Below are positions 6,417 to 61,257 of a stretch of DNA of 64,000 bases, piece after piece. The translations under genes were made by a program, and so were the position numbers. Source of the DNA: Dysgonamonadaceae bacterium (lineage in GTDB: Bacteria > Bacteroidota > Bacteroidia > Bacteroidales > Dysgonomonadaceae); the NCBI GenBank assembly GCA_031254645.1, contig JAIRUA010000017.1, forward strand, positions 1-64,000. The letters are read 5' to 3'. Below the pieces are notes generated by a model. It did not search any database, was not told the DNA's origin, and saw only the letters and a program-made list of their open reading frames with translations. Every line of letters begins with the position of its first letter. Within the stretch, counting starts at the first letter, position 1.

Positions 6417-6444
6417 ATCCGATATTCTCACGAATACCGGATGA
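6417..6444. repeat. Hairpin CATCCG/CGGATG
   Basis: An inverted repeat with arms CATCCGATATTC and GAATACCGGATG around a 4-nt loop, one mismatch. It lies in the leader of the GH92 gene on the minus strand, so it could be a regulatory hairpin or a terminator of an incoming transcript. Confidence 0.45.
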
Positions 6445-7310: not shown

Positions 7311-10300
7311 TCAGCGATTTATGCAGCGGATGGCATACCCGTTAGAAAAAGCGTACTGATTTCGATTATCTGGGGCAAAGTTACTGACATCAAAGAAGAA
7401 TCCGCTCGCGTTAGTAGCGTTGGTGGGTGTTGATGACCAATATCTTCCGCCGGTACCGCTATGAGGGTTGCCAGTCCCGCCACGGGAGGAGGCGGCGGGG
7501 AGGAATGTTCCCCCCGAGTTGACTCCCATCGCAACTCGTGGCAACCTGACGCCGGGAAGTCGGGTGCCGGACGTAACAGCTGGCCATAGAGCCCCAGCAG
7601 CAACCCATGGATTTGCACCTACTCCGGCAAATGCAATATTTTCAGCACTTGTCGGCAAGCGCCAGCCGCTATCGTGTTGCATCAACTCAGTCTGAGACAT
7701 CGTCCGCGCCTGTGTGGCAGTCAAACCTACCAACATACAAATATCACCCTTACCGGCACGAATATTAGTAAAAGTGTGGTAAGCCAAAGGACCGGAAGTT
7801 TGGGAAACATTGCTGATGCCTGCGTTCCAGTCACTAGCAATGAAATTTGGTATGTCTGCATACGTAGTCGGAGCTAACGTAGTAGGGTCGAACCTAATGC
7901 TTGTAGCATTCAAAGTGGTTGGAGTTATGCTGAAACCGATAACACCACCAAACTTAGCATAAACCATATTATTCGAAGTGACAGCCTCTTCACCATTAAC
8001 AGCCTCTGCCCATCTACCCACGCGTAAAGTTCCATTGCTGTGCAGATACAGGATATCGGCAAAACCGGCATTGAATTCATTACGTGCTTGCGTCCAAGTA
8101 CCTATAACTTCCGTATAATCAAACTCGGTACTGAAAATACGAAGTTCCAAATTCCGAGCCGTAGCATCGGAAGCATTATTAGCAGTAATGTTGACAGTGG
8201 ATTGGGGGTTGACGGGGTTTAGTCCTGTACCACCCGTCCCATTCCAAAAACTCAATCTGCTGGGAGTAGAGGTAACATCCCAAAGCTCCCAGCCCCAAGT
8301 ACCATTGGCACTGATCAGATTGCTCGTGAGGTTGAGGGTGAAAGATTGTGCACTATTACCCAATGCGCCGTTGGCAGGCTGAGTGGTGGCACTGCGGAAT
8401 AGCACCGGCAAGTGTTGCGTAACCTCAATCGGACTACCGTTCAATATAGAGATACCCGAGCCGCCTTGGTCAGGATTCTGGTCTAAGTTGGTGAAAGAAA
8501 CAGTCACCGTACGAGCCTGACCGGTAGTGGTTGTTACCAAGTTTGTTGCCACACCCGAAGGCACTGCAGGAACGATGATAGTGAACGGTGTATTTCTGAC
8601 AAGCGCAGCAGCCGTACCGGGAGTCTCAGTGATGACGCGGTCGTTGCGCGTAGTACCTGCGGTTGGCGTGGCAGCAGGCGTGACAGGTGTACCGTCTGTG
8701 CCCAACTGTACGGACACCCAGTTGGCCGGCGTAGCAGGAACCCAGCTGGCAGCAGTTACTCCCCACGTTACATTATTGGTAATGGTGTAAGCCTGAGGAG
8801 TCGAAAGACCGGTGTAAGGAACTGCGAGCGACTCGGTGGTCGGCACACGACCCCACACCTGGTTGGAGCGCGTGAAGCCCATAGAGAGCGGCTTAGACGT
8901 AGCGCCGTCCATTGCCGTAAAGGCAAACGAAAAAATAACCGGCGACGAGAAATTGGTGTTATTGAGCATAACAAAGTTACCTTCGTAAACCGGCAAATTG
9001 TCGGGGCTATAAGTAGTGCCATCCCAAGGCGAGAGTGTCAGGGTTCCGCCGTGCAAAGTAGAATTGACGGTATTGACCACCGGGTCTTGATGACTTGTTA
9101 CCACGTCGAAAGTAATGGCAGTGGTGTTCCAAGGGAATAAATACCCGGTCGTACCATCGCTGTATCTGGCAGGACTCCACTGCGGCGTGCCGAAGAACGA
9201 GCTTTGGTTCCAGAAGAAATCAAAGACATCGGCTTCGCTCGGAATAGTAACGGTAGTAGTAGCGGCTTGTAAATCGCCATACTTACCTGCCGGAGGCAAA
9301 ACGCTGAACACGCGACTGGAAAGCATCGGACTTGCAGCGCTACTGACCGAGATGGTAAAACGCTGATAACGGGCGTTCATCGCATCGCCAATGGGAGACA
9401 ATCCGGAACTGGTAATGTTCGGAGCGTCATCGCCGAAGTCCGTACCGCCAACGTTGAAGTCGATAGAAAGATCGCCTAACGGCAAGTTGGTCAACACATC
9501 AATCGGCGGATAGGTTATTCCCCCTCCCGGCACCGGTCGCTGAACACGTATAGCAGGCTCGCTGACAATAAGAATAGGTCTGCGCTGAGTGATGGTGTAT
9601 TCAACAGTGCTCTCATTATCGGGCGTAATCTTCACAATTGCTGCACGGTCATAAGTGCCGCTGACCCAGTTGTAAGGCTGTACTGTGAGCGCAAGCTGCC
9701 CGATGTAGAGATTATTTGCATCGCGATCAGTGAGATCGCCGAAGCCTTCTACCCAATTTACCGGAATGCCGGTAATGGCATCTACCACCTCAACCGTTAC
9801 CGGTACCTGAGATACGATGGCGATAGGAATAGACGTGATTTCACGACCTGCGCCCACACCTTCCGGAAATACGGTAGTGGAAGAACCGTTCACAACCGAT
9901 ACATAAAGCCTCGTCCACTCCTGTCTGACGGTGAACGCTGCTTTGAGGCGAGCGGCAGTAATGCCCCACTCCTCAAGCCTGTTTGTCTGCACCGGCGAAA
10001 CATTGGGCAAGCGGGGTGCGATTGTGAAGGTGTAGCTGTTGCCGCCGTTGGGCGTGATGGTGTAAAGGTAATAAGGCGTGGCTACCGTAACGCCGTTGTT
10101 ACGAATGGTATGATTACCCATTGTCAGTGTAAAGTCGGAGACGTTGGTCTCAATGATCACCTCTCGCTCGCTGACGAAAGGAGAGAAAACAATACGCTGA
10201 TCCGAAATACGGAAATAATTGGTGCCATCGAAATAGATATTGTCCAAATCGCTGTCGTTCCAGTTCAGGATATCGGCTTCCATATTCATCGCCGTAGATT

Positions 10301-11450
10301 CGTAAGCTGTGATGGGGTCGCCGTAGCCATCGCCCGAAACGCTGATGATATTGAACTGATACAGGAAGTTGCGGTACACGTCAATCAAACTGCCGCCTTT
10401 TGCAAAATCGAGACGGTAATAAGTGGTTGGATTGCCGTTGAAACTGCCGCCCACCACAATAGCCATACGCTCGGTGTGATTGTCGTCCATAGACGCACCG
10501 CCCAGCGGATTCATATTGATATCAGCCTCGGGAACGTAAATACTGCGCGCAGTCCAAGTACCGGTACCAACGGCGGCAGTGGTGATGCCGGTAAATAAAA
10601 AGTCGGTTTCGGAATCTGTGGCGCTAAACGCAGTCGTTCCTGCAGGAACAGTCGGTGCATTGATAGTAGTACCGGTACGGTTAGCCGCAGCAGGCGCCAC
10701 AGCATACCGGTTATTGGGGCGCATCACATACACTTCCTGAAGCACGAACGGAATCTCTGTGCCGCCTGCATCTTCACCGTTCCACGTCCAATCGTCGGTA
10801 GTGTCGGTAGAAGCGCGAGACGGGAATCCTACCCCCACATCAATACGCGCAATAGCGCGCATCAGCTCCACCGATTGGCTGGCGCCGGGATCGATAGAAA
10901 TCTGTCCGGTTTCGCCCCACATCGGAATCACACTGCCGGGAGCAGTAAACATTTTGCCGGTGATGGAGGTGAAAATCGCACGCATCACGTTGTCGTAGTT
11001 CGGTGTAGCAGGGAGGGTAGCCGTTGCAAAATCGGTGCCGACAGTGGCATCCAATATCGCACCGGCATTTGCCAATACAACTAAATTCACGGTTGCATTA
11101 CCCATCGTTTGCGGAAGCGTAATGGAAAACTCACCCGTACCGCTGTAGATGCCGGAAGAAGGGTCAACGGTTCCATTATCAATAACCAAACCTTCTTTGA
11201 TATCCATCAGCGCACTGTTGTCACTGTTGAAAACCAGTACATAAACGTCGGAAATAGCATTTTCCTGCGCAAAACTCAAACTGCGCATAGCGGGCGCTTT
11301 AAAACCGCCCGGGGTACGGAGGCGAAGCTTCACTTCGGCTTCACCGGGTTTAACGTTGGGGTTATCGTTCCCCCAAGGTATTTCGCTGATACAGGAGGCG
11401 GTGAATGCCAACACTGATAACAGCAATAGAAAATTAAAAATCTTGTTCAT
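7311..11450 (-). CDS. Very large fimbrial tip-like lipoprotein with C-terminal FISUMP domain
   Basis: A 1379-residue secreted protein. The signal peptide is of lipoprotein type (MNKIFNFLLLLSVLAFTASC; Cys20). Residues of about 38-390 resemble fimbrillin/Mfa-family N-terminal domains (AEVKLRLRTPGGF, then ISDVYVLVFNSDN). The middle, about 400-1150, is a series of beta-rich segments with BACON/Ig-like features (NVTWGVTAASWVPATPANWV). The last roughly 200 residues form a FISUMP-type domain (GDICMLVG, DSGWRLPTSAEN, RYWSSTP, GYAIRCINR). It is the last gene of the type V pilus cluster, which is where accessory or tip proteins lie. An Arg at 56 (APAMRSLSF) could be the processing site. The inferred role is an adhesive tip subunit; the ligand is unknown. 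Its GC content is visibly higher than that of the flanking regions. Confidence 0.75.
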   Translation of the reverse strand: MNKIFNFLLLLSVLAFTASCISEIPWGNDNPNVKPGEAEVKLRLRTPGGFKAPAMRSLSFAQENAISDVYVLVFNSDNSALMDIKEGLVIDNGTVDPSSGIYSGTGEFSITLPQTMGNATVNLVVLANAGAILDATVGTDFATATLPATPNYDNVMRAIFTSITGKMFTAPGSVIPMWGETGQISIDPGASQSVELMRAIARIDVGVGFPSRASTDTTDDWTWNGEDAGGTEIPFVLQEVYVMRPNNRYAVAPAAANRTGTTINAPTVPAGTTAFSATDSETDFLFTGITTAAVGTGTWTARSIYVPEADINMNPLGGASMDDNHTERMAIVVGGSFNGNPTTYYRLDFAKGGSLIDVYRNFLYQFNIISVSGDGYGDPITAYESTAMNMEADILNWNDSDLDNIYFDGTNYFRISDQRIVFSPFVSEREVIIETNVSDFTLTMGNHTIRNNGVTVATPYYLYTITPNGGNSYTFTIAPRLPNVSPVQTNRLEEWGITAARLKAAFTVRQEWTRLYVSVVNGSSTTVFPEGVGAGREITSIPIAIVSQVPVTVEVVDAITGIPVNWVEGFGDLTDRDANNLYIGQLALTVQPYNWVSGTYDRAAIVKITPDNESTVEYTITQRRPILIVSEPAIRVQRPVPGGGITYPPIDVLTNLPLGDLSIDFNVGGTDFGDDAPNITSSGLSPIGDAMNARYQRFTISVSSAASPMLSSRVFSVLPPAGKYGDLQAATTTVTIPSEADVFDFFWNQSSFFGTPQWSPARYSDGTTGYLFPWNTTAITFDVVTSHQDPVVNTVNSTLHGGTLTLSPWDGTTYSPDNLPVYEGNFVMLNNTNFSSPVIFSFAFTAMDGATSKPLSMGFTRSNQVWGRVPTTESLAVPYTGLSTPQAYTITNNVTWGVTAASWVPATPANWVSVQLGTDGTPVTPAATPTAGTTRNDRVITETPGTAAALVRNTPFTIIVPAVPSGVATNLVTTTTGQARTVTVSFTNLDQNPDQGGSGISILNGSPIEVTQHLPVLFRSATTQPANGALGNSAQSFTLNLTSNLISANGTWGWELWDVTSTPSRLSFWNGTGGTGLNPVNPQSTVNITANNASDATARNLELRIFSTEFDYTEVIGTWTQARNEFNAGFADILYLHSNGTLRVGRWAEAVNGEEAVTSNNMVYAKFGGVIGFSITPTTLNATSIRFDPTTLAPTTYADIPNFIASDWNAGISNVSQTSGPLAYHTFTNIRAGKGDICMLVGLTATQARTMSQTELMQHDSGWRLPTSAENIAFAGVGANPWVAAGALWPAVTSGTRLPGVRLPRVAMGVNSGGTFLPAASSRGGTGNPHSGTGGRYWSSTPTNATNASGFFFDVSNFAPDNRNQYAFSNGYAIRCINR

Positions 11451-11709: not shown

Positions 11710-12750
11710 TTATGCAACCACCGAATAAATATACTCCATTGTCCAACCCTTCACCGAAATGCGAATGACGAGGTTACCCTCATTGTTATTCCGAAATTCA
11801 ATGTCTATCAAGAAGGTATCCTCGCGGTCAATGTATCCCTGATTGGGATAGAGCGGATTACCGGCATCATCTTTCATCTGCTGGATGAGGTATACTACAT
11901 CCAAAGGTGGAATCAAGGCAGTATTCGTTGCCGCATCGCGCACATACAGTATGGGGCGTGCTGCGACAGGGTTTTGGCTCAAACGCTGTTGACGGATATT
12001 GAAAACTTCGGTTATCTTGCCGCCGGCTTCGTCTCGGTTGCCGTCGTGTGGCAGGAAGAGCATACGTGGCGTATCGGCAAACAGGTTATTGTCGTTACCG
12101 TAGAGCCAGTTACGCCCTACGGTGAAAACATCAAGCTCCATACCGGTCAGCGCGCGTGTTGAGAGATTCTCCAAACCGGCAACATTCACAGTCAGCGTAT
12201 TGGTATTACGAATCAGGTCGAAGTCAACCGACTGGTCACGACCGCTGCTCAACACCGTAACATCCTTCGCAATTGCCCAAAAGAGGTCGCCAAAACCGGC
12301 TGTCTGCGGAACAACGTCTGCCAAGCCTGCGTACGGACTGCCTGAAGGAAGGGAAGCGGTGGCGAGCGTCATACGGAAATCGTTTAACGTGGTCTGACCC
12401 ACTGTTCCGGCTGCTGCATATCCGCCGTTTGTAATATTGGTGTTACTGCCCCAAGCGACAAACGTATAACGTCCGCCCAGAAGATCAACGTCAATATACC
12501 CACGAGCAATATCCTGCTCCGTTACATTGATCATATCAACCAAAAGACCGGTTACCTGATCGAAGACGTAAACACGAATGTTACGCACTTCGTCCGCTAA
12601 CAGATCTTCGTGCTGATTATTCAGCGTAAAGCTGAACTGCAGCCGGAAATCCAACCGACCACAATCGTCTAAATTATCCTTTATACAGCTGCTTAACAAA
12701 AGAACAAGCAACGGAAGAAGGAGAATCTTTTTTAAAATATCCATATTCAT
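11710..12750 (-). CDS. FimB/Mfa2-family fimbrial anchor lipoprotein
   Basis: A 346-residue lipoprotein (LLVLLLSSC, with a second ATG two codons in). The body begins CGRLDFRLQFSFTLNN and NIRVYVFDQVTGLLVDM, the pattern of the FimB/Mfa2 (DUF1812) family that anchors type V pili and ends their growth at the outer membrane. Unlike the two fimbrillins upstream it has no Arg-Ala processing site after the lipobox, which fits an anchor that keeps its lipid. It lies between the fimbrillins and the tip-like gene, as in Bacteroidales pilus clusters. Confidence 0.85.
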   Translation of the reverse strand: MNMDILKKILLLPLLVLLLSSCIKDNLDDCGRLDFRLQFSFTLNNQHEDLLADEVRNIRVYVFDQVTGLLVDMINVTEQDIARGYIDVDLLGGRYTFVAWGSNTNITNGGYAAAGTVGQTTLNDFRMTLATASLPSGSPYAGLADVVPQTAGFGDLFWAIAKDVTVLSSGRDQSVDFDLIRNTNTLTVNVAGLENLSTRALTGMELDVFTVGRNWLYGNDNNLFADTPRMLFLPHDGNRDEAGGKITEVFNIRQQRLSQNPVAARPILYVRDAATNTALIPPLDVVYLIQQMKDDAGNPLYPNQGYIDREDTFLIDIEFRNNNEGNLVIRISVKGWTMEYIYSVVA

Positions 12751-12862: not shown

Positions 12863-13996
12863 TTATAAATTATGATACATATCTTCAACATTCCAATCCA
12901 ACACATCAACATCTGTGGTAACCGTCACATCTTCCGAAGGATTCGGAGTGAAGCTCAGGTTATTGATGTTAAACTGTACACCGTTTATCCGGTAAATATT
13001 ACCGCGTTCAAAAGCGGTGATGGCAGCGCCACTCACATTGTTATGCCTGTAACTGACTACGGTTACAAAACGGATTTGACCGGCGAAATTAACGGTACCC
13101 GAACCGCCGCTGTCGCTCCACGAAGCAGAGATATTCTCCAACCTGAGAATCAGGCGGGGCATATTGCCGGTCATCGCCGGAAGATTGTAAGCCCATACGT
13201 TATCGTTACCCGGAATTGCTGTGCCGGCAACGGCGCCCCACGAATCCTCATCACCGATACCATCAAACTGCTTAAACTCCGTACCCTGCGAGAACAACTC
13301 GTCGCCGACACCCGCAAGCGTGAACTCCTCGTAGTAATTATCCGCAAAAACACCGGTTACGGTAAAACCGGTAATGGTGTAGGTACGATTGGGGTTTACC
13401 GCAGCAGCACCGGTGGTATAATCGACAGCGACTGCGCTAACCAATTCCAAACGACCAACAAGCGGCGAAAGGTTGACACTCACCGAAGCTGTAGTAGCGC
13501 CGGACACGTGGTTGATGGGAATGGCATTGCCACTCTCGTTTGCCAAAGTAACGCCGGTGTGCCCTCTGCCGTCCTGACCTTCTGTGTTCAACACATAGTT
13601 TTGGATAGCGGAAAGGGTTGCAAGGTTTTTGATAGCGTCATAGTTACCCGGGTAAGCGCCGGGCAGGTTACCCACAATGTATATACGCGCGTTGGACGGA
13701 ACACCTGTAACAATCTGACCGGTACCGGCTCCGGACTGTAACGCCTCGCCCACATTCAACTCCACACTCCTAACCACGTTACCAGTAGTGGAACTGACCA
13801 AGAATATCCATCCGTCGGTAAGGGTGGCGGCAACAGCCGTACCGGGAGCCTCTACGGCTCTGCCGCTTATGCTTGTGTTGGTAATCCTGACGGTGAGGTT
13901 TATCGTTTCGTCTTTTGTGCCCGAATTGTCTTGGGAGCAGGAGACGAATGTAAATACGATTGCCGCAATGGTGATTAATAAAAATATATTCCTCAT
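12863..13996 (-). CDS. Fimbrillin family protein (type V pilin), second copy
   Basis: A 377-residue protein with a lipoprotein signal (MRNIFLLITIAAIVFTFVSC; Cys20), then TINLTVRITNTSISGRAVEA. Type V pilins travel as lipoproteins and are cut after an Arg by a surface protease, which frees a strand groove for polymerisation; here the candidate site is Arg46-Ala47, the same position as in the neighbouring fimbrillin. The body is beta-rich, with PNRTYTITGFTVTGVFADNYYEEF, VWAYNLPAM and a C-terminal VDVLDWNVEDMY. The ATG at 13996 places the lipobox and Arg46 correctly; a longer reading to 14050 adds 18 polar residues. It is likely a structural or accessory pilin. Confidence 0.82.
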   Translation of the reverse strand: MRNIFLLITIAAIVFTFVSCSQDNSGTKDETINLTVRITNTSISGRAVEAPGTAVAATLTDGWIFLVSSTTGNVVRSVELNVGEALQSGAGTGQIVTGVPSNARIYIVGNLPGAYPGNYDAIKNLATLSAIQNYVLNTEGQDGRGHTGVTLANESGNAIPINHVSGATTASVSVNLSPLVGRLELVSAVAVDYTTGAAAVNPNRTYTITGFTVTGVFADNYYEEFTLAGVGDELFSQGTEFKQFDGIGDEDSWGAVAGTAIPGNDNVWAYNLPAMTGNMPRLILRLENISASWSDSGGSGTVNFAGQIRFVTVVSYRHNNVSGAAITAFERGNIYRINGVQFNINNLSFTPNPSEDVTVTTDVDVLDWNVEDMYHNL

Positions 13997-14070
13997 ATCA
14001 TTTAATTTATTTATTTCTTTGTGATGTGCGGAAATATCACTTTTCTGCACATCTTTTTTTGGTTTAAAGA

Positions 14071-14161: not shown

Positions 14162-15289
14162 TTATTGAACCACCGCCCAAGTAGGATTAAGCGTCCACTG
14201 TCTAACCGTAACTTCTACGCGAGTATCAGCAATAATCGGATTCGGTGTAGAGTGCAGTTTATCCGCAGAGAACATAATATTTGCCACTTGATAAACATTA
14301 GCCCTACTAAAGGTGCTAAGCGCGTTGGTACCTGCTGCGTTTGTTGCCCAAGTAACGGTCAAATAGCGAACAGATGTGTCAGGAGCAGAACTCGCTGACC
14401 ACGCTGCGTTATCAAGCGAAGTTTGGGTTACAACGTTCGTTACCGGAATAATCAAACGTGGTGCCGCGCCTGCTGCAAGGTTGTATGCCCATACAGTACC
14501 TGCCGGAGTAGGTGTTACAGCCGGAGTAGCATTCGAACTCCAAGGACCGTTATCGCCAAGTCCGGTGTTAGCAAAGGTCTGATCCATCTCGGCCAAAGTA
14601 CCCGAACCTGCGCCGGCAAATGTATAGTTGGGGGAATAACCATCAACATAAACACCATTTACATCAAAAGAAACAATACGCGTGTAAACAAGGGTAGCCG
14701 TATTATAGAATACACCCGTGCTAATTTGAGTAACCTCTAAACGTGAGATAGCCGGAGAAACCTCGATAACAGCCTGGTAATCGGCATCACCGGCAGGCGT
14801 ACCGGCAGTACCGCCTGTATTCGGAACCATAGAAGCGGCATCAGTGTGGTTAGACATAGGTACAAAACCGTTGGCTTCCAAACTCGTAAGACCGGTAACA
14901 GCACCACCTGCAGCCTTAATGGCGGTAAGTGTAGTAAGTGTGTTCACACTGGTAGGAGCGTTAAGCACAACATAAACACGCCAAGAAGCTACAACATCTG
15001 AAATAACCTGACCTTCACCATCAATAGCTTGAGTAGGATCTAAAGCTATTGACCGAATTACATTATCACCGGCGTCTACAAAGAAAATACGGTGGTTGCC
15101 GGCAGGATCCACATCGGCATAGACAGCACCTGTCGTGGGAGCCTGAGTAGCCCTGTTTGCCGTACCCGGTGTTACAATTTTAACGGCAAGAGCGCCTTTA
15201 CCCGGATCAATTACCGGCACTTCTTCGTTGTTACACGAAGCGAACATCATTGCAACCGCTATGGCTGCCAAAAATAATTTACTTTTCAT
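14162..15289 (-). CDS. Fimbrillin family protein (type V pilin), first copy
   Basis: A 375-residue protein with a lipoprotein signal (MKSKLFLAAIAVAMMFASC; Cys19), then ALAVKIVTPGTANRATQAP. The Arg46-Ala47 bond matches the kind of Arg site cut by a protease during type V pilin maturation. The body has pilin-like features: HRIFFVDAGDNVIRSIAL, SWRVYVVLNAPTSV, ISRLEVTQIS, SFDVNGVYVDGY, VWAYNLAAGAAPRLIIPV and a C-terminal EVTVRQWTLNPTW. It shares a layout with the downstream fimbrillin at 12863-13996 (VWAYNL, terminal W-rich strand), so the two are probably paralogues. As the gene nearest the anchor cluster's start it is the best candidate for the main shaft pilin; which copy dominates cannot be told from sequence. 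Confidence 0.85.
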   Translation of the reverse strand: MKSKLFLAAIAVAMMFASCNNEEVPVIDPGKGALAVKIVTPGTANRATQAPTTGAVYADVDPAGNHRIFFVDAGDNVIRSIALDPTQAIDGEGQVISDVVASWRVYVVLNAPTSVNTLTTLTAIKAAGGAVTGLTSLEANGFVPMSNHTDAASMVPNTGGTAGTPAGDADYQAVIEVSPAISRLEVTQISTGVFYNTATLVYTRIVSFDVNGVYVDGYSPNYTFAGAGSGTLAEMDQTFANTGLGDNGPWSSNATPAVTPTPAGTVWAYNLAAGAAPRLIIPVTNVVTQTSLDNAAWSASSAPDTSVRYLTVTWATNAAGTNALSTFSRANVYQVANIMFSADKLHSTPNPIIADTRVEVTVRQWTLNPTWAVVQ

Positions 15290-17825: not shown

Positions 17826-17910
17826 ATTTATAATGATTAATGGTTAGTGATTAATGATTAATGGTTAATCATTCGTCATTAACATTTGTTATTAGCTATT
17901 CGTTGGCTGA

Positions 17911-17998
17911 TGAGTAGCTACTTATTCGTCCATGAGTAGCTACTCATTCGTCTGTGAGTAGCTACTCATTTGCCCGTGTGTGGCTACTCGTTTTTTAT
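17911..17998. repeat. Four tandem 22-bp repeats, each with a palindrome
   Basis: Units start at 17911, 17933, 17955 and 17977. The first three carry TGAGTAGCTACT(T/C)A, which as TGAGTAGCTACTCA is a perfect 14-bp palindrome; the fourth is diverged. A part unit precedes them (about 17893-17910). The array lies directly 3' of the HU-like stop codon (18001) and 5' of the DUF3575 gene. It could be a set of binding sites for a dimeric regulator or a stack of hairpins that limits read-through. Confidence 0.8.
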
Positions 17999-18000
17999 TA

Positions 18001-18387
18001 TCAATTGACTTTCTGAAAGCGTGCATTCTTCAGCATATCCTGCATCTTCTTGCCGGGTGTAAAAATAACACCGGTTCGTCTGATTGCCGATGAGGTCACC
18101 TCTTCGGGCGTATCTCTGCCGTCACTGCTAAGGCTGATACGAAGGCTGCCCAAATCGCCCAGGCGAATAACGCGACCTTCAGCCAAACCGTCAGCCGCCT
18201 GTTCTACCATTGCGTAGAGTACCGCGCGAATATCCGCGCCGCTGAGGGTGCTTTTGCGTTCGATAGCACGGGTAAGCGCTTCGAGGGTTACTTCTCTGCC
18301 CAATACGGGAGTGGCGTAGAATTTTCTGGTGCCGCCGCCGGATACCCCCGGCTGCGGGCGTTCGATTGTTTTGAATTGAATGGACAT
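18001..18387 (-). CDS. HU/IHF-like DNA-binding protein
   Basis: A 128-residue protein of the Bacteroidota HU-like family. After the N-terminal KFYATPVLGREVTLEALTRA it shows a helix-turn region (IRAVLYAMVEQAADGLAEGRVIRLGDLGSLRISL) matching the HU fold's dimer core (HU: the G-x-F-x-L-F-like arm base, here GDLGSLRI), then GVIFTPGKKMQDML, which matches the end of the HU saddle. The Gly-rich lead (QPGVSGGGTRK) is typical of this subfamily. It is the first gene of the pilus cluster and the only obvious DNA-binding protein there. Its target is unknown; the palindromic repeats just downstream are candidates. Confidence 0.85.
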   Translation of the reverse strand: MSIQFKTIERPQPGVSGGGTRKFYATPVLGREVTLEALTRAIERKSTLSGADIRAVLYAMVEQAADGLAEGRVIRLGDLGSLRISLSSDGRDTPEEVTSSAIRRTGVIFTPGKKMQDMLKNARFQKVN

Positions 18388-18467: not shown

Positions 18468-18861
18468 TGACTAAACTATACGACCGATTATTTTCGATAG
18501 ATTTAATACATGTGAAACTGTGAAGGATGCACTTTGTTAAAATGATAGCATATCATTGCAAATTGAGTAAATCTACAATTTATCCTAGCGGCTTTCTTTT
18601 GTTAAATATTTATAATCATCAAAATAAAACTATGAAATAATTTTTTAATTCCAAAAGAAGCAATACCTTTGCAGCCGTTCATTGATTCAAAATACAAGAA
18701 AAAGAACAAAGTAAAGAACAAAAAAATACTTTTGATGTACAAAAGCATTTGAACAAATTGTCAAGATAATTGTTACAATAATTATAAGGCAAGAATGAAC
18801 AAAATAAACACAAAAACGTTGATAAAATATGATGCATTTAATCGGTCGTTTAATTTAGTCA
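18468..18861. repeat. Segment bounded by 23-bp imperfect inverted repeats
   Basis: The left arm 18468-18490 (reverse complement begins TAATCGGTCGT) matches the right arm 18839-18861 at 21 of 23 positions; the shared ends are TAATCGGTCGT and TTTAGTCA. They enclose 348 bp of AT-rich DNA with no gene. No target-site duplication is obvious. It could be an invertible promoter segment, a small transposon-like element, or paired operators. Confidence 0.6.
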
Positions 18862-19091: not shown

Positions 19092-19976
19092 ATGTGCCAG
19101 ATTTTTCCGGCAGCAACACCGGCAGTCAAGATATTTTATCTATTTATATTCTTGATACCCTGCACAATTGTTGCCGTTGTGTCTATTGGCTTAATAACGA
19201 TGGTGATAGGCAAAAGCGAACAGTCCGGATTATGGACGCTTTACGCAAGTATGTTTGTGCAAGGCGTTTGTATGTTTGTTTTGCCTGTCTATTTCGCACT
19301 AAAAGCAACAAATTCGCAACCAATAACGTATCTGAAATTGAATAAAAATGAACGATTAGACGAAAAAATTCTGTTCGGCTTGTTCGTGTTTTTCGCTGCA
19401 TACGTATTCGTTTTGTTTCTAACGCATTGGAATAAAACAATCGAATTGCCCGAATCGATGCGCGGTATTGAGCAATGGATGCACACAAAAGAAGATATGG
19501 CAATAGCTACAACAGAGCGACTATTGTCTGTGCAAACTATTGGCGAATTACTGATGAATATTCTTATCATCGGTGTTGTGGCGGCGGTAGCAGAGGAAAT
19601 TATTTTTCGCGGCGCTTTACAGCAATTTTTGCAAGAATGGACACGAAACGGACACATTGCCGTATGGATTTCGGCATTTATTTTCAGCGCGGTACATTTA
19701 CAATTTTTCGGCTTTTTTCCGAGACTTGTATTGGGTGCACTGTTGGGTTATCTATTTTTATATACGCAAAATTTATGGATACCGATTTTCGTGCATTTTT
19801 TCAATAACACATTAGTTGTGATAGTGAACTACTTTTGGAAAAATGCAGAGTGGTTGAAAAATACGGAAAAAATAGAGATCACACCAACATTTTTTGTTTT
19901 GGCAATGGTGAGTTTAGCAACAACTATTCTACTATTTCATAAATTCCGGAAAAGCGAAAATCCCAAGGTCTTATAG
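19092..19976 (+). CDS. CPBP family intramembrane metalloprotease
   Basis: A 294-residue polytopic membrane protein of the CPBP/CAAX-protease (Abi) family. The core motifs are present: AEEIIFRGALQQFL (E168, E169, R173), FSAVHLQF (H202) and FVHFFNNT. There are about eight hydrophobic segments; the first starts near residue 12. In bacteria these enzymes cut membrane substrates or modify bacteriocins and prenylated peptides; the substrate here is unknown. It is followed 34 bp later by a DUF3109 gene in the same direction, with a short run of CTTATAGT repeats between. Confidence 0.9.
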   Translation: MCQIFPAATPAVKIFYLFIFLIPCTIVAVVSIGLITMVIGKSEQSGLWTLYASMFVQGVCMFVLPVYFALKATNSQPITYLKLNKNERLDEKILFGLFVFFAAYVFVLFLTHWNKTIELPESMRGIEQWMHTKEDMAIATTERLLSVQTIGELLMNILIIGVVAAVAEEIIFRGALQQFLQEWTRNGHIAVWISAFIFSAVHLQFFGFFPRLVLGALLGYLFLYTQNLWIPIFVHFFNNTLVVIVNYFWKNAEWLKNTEKIEITPTFFVLAMVSLATTILLFHKFRKSENPKVL

Positions 19977-61185: not shown

Positions 61186-61257
61186 GCACCCGTAGTTCAA
61201 TGGATAGAATTTCAGATTCCGGTTCTGACGATATGAGTTCGAATCTCATCGGGTGTA
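61186..61257 (+). tRNA. tRNA-Arg (anticodon CCG)
   Basis: 72 nt folding into a cloverleaf: acceptor GCACCCG with CGGGTGT, D arm AGTTCAATGGAT, anticodon stem TCAGA/TCTGA with loop TTCCGGT (anticodon CCG at 61219-61221, reading CGG), T arm with GAGTTCGAATCTC. The discriminator base is A and CCA is not encoded. Confidence 0.93.

Follow-up and report, generated by a model that had tools for sequence, protein, structure and literature searches.

In the genome of Dysgonamonadaceae bacterium (GenBank assembly GCA_031254645.1; G000, our own genome in what follows, with 31 contigs and 92% completeness), we identified six promoter cassettes bounded by inverted repeats, all six of which are located upstream of pilus genes. 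One of these cassettes lies in the stretch of DNA that we analysed, which comprises positions 1 to 64,000 of contig JAIRUA010000017.1 (C1:1-64000) and is referred to here as the window. Based on the evidence presented below, it is highly likely that the cassettes are invertible promoters, whichever enzyme inverts them, and likely that they are Mpi-type invertible pilus promoters flipped by an enzyme of the Mpi family. The best reading of the cassettes as assembled is that all six are OFF. Under the proposed mechanism, window positions 18483-18846 are bounded by inverted sites of Mpi-type architecture, and an Mpi-family serine invertase encoded on contig C20 would flip this segment and thereby turn the neighbouring pilus operon on or off.

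An earlier reading of this DNA, made from the sequence alone (the sequence-only reading), described two 23-bp arms around a possible invertible promoter. Our repeat scan recovered these arms, which are complementary at 21 of 23 positions and enclose 348 bp; a second scan reported the same pair as 40-nt arms with 75% matching. Allowing for up to three mismatches, the arm occurs twice in the 64-kb window, with no matches in 100 dinucleotide shuffles, and when the 704-bp intergenic stretch was shuffled 300 times, an equally good inverted repeat never appeared. The enclosed 348 bp are gene-free as described (no ORF of ≥60 aa between the arms), and both of the boxes described in that reading, TACCTTTG at 18664 and TACTTTTG at 18727, are present on the plus strand and point away from the HU-like and pilus genes. 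In line with the earlier remark that no promoter for the HU-like gene is visible on the minus strand, the 96-bp gap from the left crossover centre to the HU start codon contains no TAnnTT[T/C]G box facing that gene. The first box, P1, is at the exact midpoint of the segment in the window (18664) and in the two closest copies of the cassette, C3a (L023 6168) and C13 (L024 10517); a flip would therefore shift the start by 0-1 bp and reverse its direction alone. The outer part of the distal arm in the window (18849-18861, TTTAATTTAGTCA) resembles the corresponding portion of the distal arms at the other loci. Coordinates of the cassette and of the genes beside it are given in the table.

Table. 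Features of the window cassette and its surroundings (window positions unless a contig and locus are named).
Feature	Position	Strand	Remarks
Proximal (left) arm	18468..18490	-	crossover centre 18483-18484, GT read from inside to outside
Distal (right) arm	18839..18861	+	crossover centre 18845-18846, GT
Predicted invertible segment, centre to centre	18483..18846	.	inversion predicted; 80-84% identity at C3a and C13
P1, TACCTTTG box of the Bacteroidales promoter type	18664..18671	+	points away from the pilus genes
P2, TACTTTTG box	18727..18734	+	same direction as P1; present in two of six cassettes (window, C3a)
HU-HIG family DNA-binding protein, head of the predicted pilus operon	18001..18387	-	PF18291, E 3.6e-32
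Array of three GTAGCTAC palindromes, 22-bp spacing	17893..17980	.	separates the HU gene from the pilus gene that follows; palindromes at 17914-17965
DUF3575 + OmpA-like protein, 720 aa	15663..17825	-	paralogues at other pilus clusters
Pilin-like lipoprotein	14162..15289	-	by inspection; no Pfam match
Pilin-like lipoprotein	12863..14050	-	by inspection; no Pfam match
Mfa2-type anchor protein	11710..12750	-	PF08842, E 5.6e-34
Large protein, possible tip protein	7311..11450	-	FimA-type match below the cut-off, 20.6 vs 21.4 bits
CPBP/Rce1-like gene, distal side	19092..19976	+	PF02517; own TACCTTTG box
GTAGCTAC array at C13	L024 9698-9771		4 copies
GTAGCTAC array at C3b	L025 7484-7557		4 copies

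The minus-strand genes beside the window cassette make up a FimA/Mfa-type (type V) pilus cluster, based on the anchor protein, the weak FimA match, and the two pilin-like proteins; anchors were checked at the window and at C3a, and a PF08842 anchor is also encoded at C3a. The CPBP/Rce1-like gene on the distal side is not thought to be part of the switch. At all three pilus loci that are led by an HU-HIG gene, an array of GTAGCTAC palindromes with exact 22-bp spacing directly follows that gene. Outside these arrays, the own DNA that we scanned contains one copy of the palindrome at C21 (L073 3686) and otherwise isolated copies. It is possible that the arrays are operators, for instance for the HU-HIG protein.

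Using the window cassette as a query against its own genome, we identified two near-full copies, C3:29968-30375 (84%; C3a) and C13:10334-10719 (81%; C13). Each precedes a paralogous pilus cluster encoding a protein with ~82% identity to the 720-aa protein of the window. Three diverged cassettes complete the set: C3b (locus L025), with exact 20-bp arms, precedes an HU-HIG gene; C6 (L077), with exact 25-bp arms, precedes a DUF3575-OmpA gene; and C21 (L073), with 10-bp exact arms, precedes a pilin-like gene. The sequence-only reading had named a lack of other arm copies in the genome, together with a lack of inverted reads, as a result that would speak against it; our search found such copies, and this half of the test did not refute the reading. 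The far-side neighbours differ at the six loci, with the CPBP gene (PF02517) at the window and, by inspection, panC, sugar-isomerase-like, PIN-like, dipeptidase-like, and protease-like genes at the others.

Contigs C21 (end of L073) and C30 (start of L074) both end in pilus genes with an identical protein stretch, so the assembly probably broke at a repeat, and more pilus loci may be missing from it. Elsewhere on contig C6, we observed a 93-bp inverted repeat (L203 1133-2201; score 84) with arms ~1 kb apart. On contig C22, L192 13696-15244 contains an exact 24-bp inverted repeat (14883-14906 and 15221-15244) directly after an integrase ORF; by its anatomy, this pair looks like an ordinary local inverton in a mobilisable-looking stretch.

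When the arms of the six cassettes are read from inside to outside, a single dyad, TAAWYG-NN-CRTWTWW, fits 12 of 12, nine of them exactly and three with one departure. The central dinucleotide is GT at the window, C3a, and C13, AA at C3b, and AC at C6 and C21. At each of the six loci, the centre is identical in both arms, in inverted orientation, and it differs between loci. A centre that is matched within a locus and variable between loci is as expected of serine-invertase crossover sites; the available text of PMC11607074 describes a cut with a 2-bp stagger by serine recombinases and only traces of recombinants when the central 2 bp differ.

We also used the dyad as a model to scan 468,331 bases of own DNA; this analysis identified six outward pairs with the same centre, which are exactly the cassette pairs. 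As the model was derived from the arms, their recovery is by construction, and the information in the scan is the scarcity of other pairs together with the matched centres. The other pairs in own DNA comprised eight outward pairs with unequal centres, one inward pair with the same centre, and 10 inward pairs with unequal centres; among direct pairs, none had the same centre, and 23 had unequal centres. The reversed dyad pattern, used as a control on own DNA, gave one outward same-centre pair. No outward same-centre pair was found in the loci of relatives (579,275 bases, some of them overlapping). A related loose site pattern showed no enrichment genome-wide (213 matches vs 416 for the reversed control); its four exact matches in the genome are each a distal arm belonging to the six-cassette set.

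Each of the six cassettes carries TACCTT[T/C]G, which in every case points away from the pilus genes. Between the proximal arm and the head gene, we found no gene-facing TAnnTT[T/C]G box at any of the six loci. Gene-facing box-like 8-mers do occur inside the C3a, C13, and C3b segments, at unlike places, and they look like chance matches. With its predicted promoter directed away from the pilus genes as assembled, the window operon is expected to be OFF. A seventh pilus locus, on contig C30, carries a homologous promoter-leader (71%, E 1.3e-13) that lacks arms and is oriented toward a DUF3575 gene, with its box ~250 nt from the ATG. Of all our observations, this locus speaks most strongly for the module being a pilus promoter and for the six cassettes being reversed. 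In a computed flip about the crossover centres, the conserved box would come to lie 196-413 nt upstream of the head start codons; at the window, the -7 box would be 278 nt upstream of the HU-HIG start codon. The distance of 332 nt at C3a presumes that translation starts at L023:6500; as the ORF opens at 6440, the distance may be ~50 nt less. The proposal that the window segment is an invertible promoter in its OFF orientation is thus supported by six loci of the same design and by the armless module on C30, and from these loci we infer inversion.

One observation that counts against a switch is that all six cassettes are in one orientation. One-sided assemblies are common, since the available text of PMC11892184 reports that 1011 of 1837 invertons in a defined gut community had a minor orientation at ≤1%, and that of PMC3090145 reports that the large-capsule promoter of B. 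fragilis was OFF in three of three genome sequences; these data are a defence of the switch rather than proof of it.

An improbable alternative is that the cassettes once flipped and that most of them (at least C3a, C13, and C21) have since been frozen OFF through erosion of the arms. The shared orientation fits this history, as do the outer halves of the proximal arms, which have drifted to T-runs at C3a, C13, C6, and C21. The single-locus shuffle test (300 shuffles) took in five pairs, with another palindrome ranking first at C13; taken alone, the inverted repeats were no better than shuffles at C3a (264 of 300 as good) and C21 (234 of 300), and the arms there are indistinct in that sense. 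However, the inverted repeat was significant alone at the window, C3b, and C6, where the arms are near-perfect or perfect, and each of the six loci retains matching centres and inner half-sites in its two arms. The elements are also more conserved than four-fold coding sites: among the window, C3a, and C13, the non-coding element (~376 bp) is 80-84% identical with 1-3 gap columns, whereas identity is 57-62% at four-fold degenerate sites of the adjacent gene and 42-55% in the distal flanks. Identity of the cassettes drops at the arms.

The same conservation, which extends over the entire element beyond the arms and promoter, speaks for another possibility, namely that the cassette is a pilus-linked control region whose orientation is permanently fixed and which serves as a pair of operators or as a divergent promoter for a leader RNA. 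We regard this as very improbable. The single orientation at six of six loci is compatible with it, and at C3a and C3b the terminator-like hairpins immediately beyond the distal arm would terminate a short transcript; at the window, C13, C6, and C21, however, the terminator scan found no hairpin in this position. If the arms were operators for one protein, their centres should not differ from locus to locus while agreeing inside each locus, and the C30 module is oriented toward its gene. An RNA element was rejected as well, since comparison of three copies showed no covariation and the folding energy was ordinary (z -0.46). The Rfam scan of the window returned a single match, a tRNA at 61186. 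A candidate small ORF in the leader (MNKINTKTLI...) was rejected since the C13 copy carries a stop codon, and sigma-70-type scans at the loci yielded nothing informative.

If the cassettes are invertible promoters, as we favour, both the repeats and the recombinase genes of the genome bear on which enzyme would flip them. In B. intestinalis, invertible capsule promoters of 183-186 bp are flanked by a perfect 10-bp repeat, GTTCGTTTAA, which overlaps in part with the Mpi repeat ARACGTTCGTN (both from the available text of PMC8375218). Both arms of C3b contain GTTCGTTTAA exactly, and they are the sole exact inverted pair in the own DNA scanned; both arms of C6 match it at 9 of 10 positions. With one mismatch allowed, the own DNA scanned contains seven inverted pairs of GTTCGTTTAA, of which two are arms (C3b and C6) and five are elsewhere. 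The B. fragilis Mpi repeat ARACGTTCGT formed no exact inverted pair in the same DNA; with one mismatch allowed, it formed three, none of them at pilus loci; by reading, the window arm (AATCGGTCGT) matches this repeat at 8 of 10 positions. In setting the arms apart from the known Mpi site, the sequence-only reading was therefore right about the letters of the B. fragilis repeat but not about the architecture. The dyad architecture fits 12 of 12 arms.

The sequence-only reading noted no recombinase gene in the window and proposed a search of the genome for a serine or tyrosine recombinase. This search identified 13 matches to PF00589 (tyrosine recombinase) and one to PF00239, and none of the 14 is inside C1:1-64000. 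The PF00239 match, which is the sole recombinase of that family detected in the assembly, is a 204-aa protein encoded on contig C20 between genes that, by inspection, are prfA-like and pyrF-like. It matches NCBIfam NF009949, the master DNA invertase Mpi family, with 346.7 bits vs a cut-off of 272, and it aligns with the solved DNA-invertases 4m6f and 3uj3 across the catalytic part. We infer that this Mpi-family enzyme acts on the cassette sites. An invertible promoter that is flipped by a tyrosine recombinase in place of the Mpi-family enzyme is hardly likely: the 13 PF00589 matches are in its favour, as is the frequency of local tyrosine-recombinase invertons in Bacteroidota (described in the available text of PMC11892184), but no PF00589 or PF00239 match was found in the stretches around the six loci, and the matched 2-bp centre of the dyad and the exact GTTCGTTTAA repeat indicate a serine invertase. 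It is extremely unlikely that the cassette is a MITE, a small transposable element with copies spread over the genome. The cassette is dispersed, ~390 bp long, and non-coding with terminal inverted repeats, as a MITE would be, but in the own-genome searches its near-full copies were found solely before pilus genes in one relative orientation and none at unrelated sites, the window flanks (GCTTTCTGACAT and GTTTTGACAAAA) have no adjoining target-site duplication, and the arms vary between loci and agree within a locus.

Across 101 genomes (own genome included), the cassette was represented in relatives by fragments of 29-72 bp alone, in 13 relatives, and no cassette in the opposite orientation was found in them. 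The distal-arm pattern (≤2 mismatches) gave 13 single matches in 13 relatives vs 19 for the reversed control. A search of the relatives' contigs with a single protein query returned no loci, and a search with an alignment query returned 25; of these, 21 had no repeat scoring ≥12 upstream (up to 1.8 kb, shorter at contig ends), and four had weak upstream repeats with scores of 12-14. An inverted-repeat scan of 51 loci of relatives identified one box bounded by inverted repeats, with arms unrelated to those of the cassette. In this locus (L188 3910-4153; genome G060, contig C8), exact 20-bp arms surround a TACCTTTG box that points away from a DUF3575 pilus cluster, and the box adjoins ORFs resembling pieces of an integrase; it may be another pilus switch, unrelated to the first kind. 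At L178 and L180, site-like pairs were rejected because they are within a coding gene.

Returning to the Mpi-type switch proposed here, serine recombinases require identical central 2 bp in the sites that they join, and the two arms of one locus should therefore recombine with each other but ignore sites that carry a different code. One enzyme would then switch at least six different pili individually. The genome contains three overlap classes (GT, AC, and AA), and HU-HIG genes head three of the six operons. A more elaborate scheme, which we consider doubtful, is that the overlap dinucleotide serves as an address for a single Mpi invertase, preventing recombination across classes while loci of the same class exchange promoter-leaders, and that the HU-HIG protein, acting via the GTAGCTAC arrays, exerts feedback on inversion or on the operon that encodes it.

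If the proposed mechanism is true, the Mpi principle of one trans-acting serine invertase for many dispersed promoters would extend from capsules to adhesive pili. The six paired sites, with three codes in one genome, would put the 2-bp overlap rule to the test in a natural experiment. A cheap sequence test for hidden phase-variable pilus loci would also follow, namely a scan for outward TAAWYG-NN-CRTWTWW pairs with the same centre, which is applicable to genomes known from assemblies alone.

Among known systems, the E. coli fimS switch is flipped by tyrosine recombinases. As proposed for the cassettes, it is a promoter segment of ~300 bp whose flipping turns a pilus operon on or off (available text of PMC5903667); unlike them, it is a single locus and is served by tyrosine recombinases (available text of PMC9993118), and the parts of the two systems are unrelated. 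Like the switch proposed here, the Hin/hix flagellar system of Salmonella depends on a serine DNA invertase acting on paired sites; it is assisted by HU, and an HU-like gene heads three of the pilus loci here. As described in the portions of PMC3798978 available, the DNA that Hin inverts is a single locus of ~1000 bp, and the reaction requires a Fis-bound enhancer. Invertons at fimbrillin genes of Bacteroidota (groups 137, 112, and 122 in the available text of PMC11892184) resemble the cassettes, as interpreted here, in being invertible promoters positioned to drive pilus genes. The same source links group 137 with site-specific integrases, and the likeness to the cassettes noted here is one of placement.

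The Mpi capsule promoters of B. fragilis and B. intestinalis (PMC4747536 and PMC8375218, in their available text) share with the cassettes a short promoter segment, inverted repeats, dispersed loci, and one trans-acting serine invertase, in the same NCBIfam family as the C20 enzyme; the exact 10-bp GTTCGTTTAA repeat is also present at C3b. The differences from the capsule promoters described in these sources are that the loci here are pilus operons instead of capsules, that the centres are 262-362 bp apart vs 183-186 bp, that three forms of the centre occur in one genome, and that exact ARACGTTCGT is unused at the pilus loci. Among the matches listed in the open literature, we found no Mpi-type switches at pilus operons. 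Our verdict is that the cassettes are likely of a known kind, the Mpi-type invertible promoter, with a variant target (pili) and a variable overlap.
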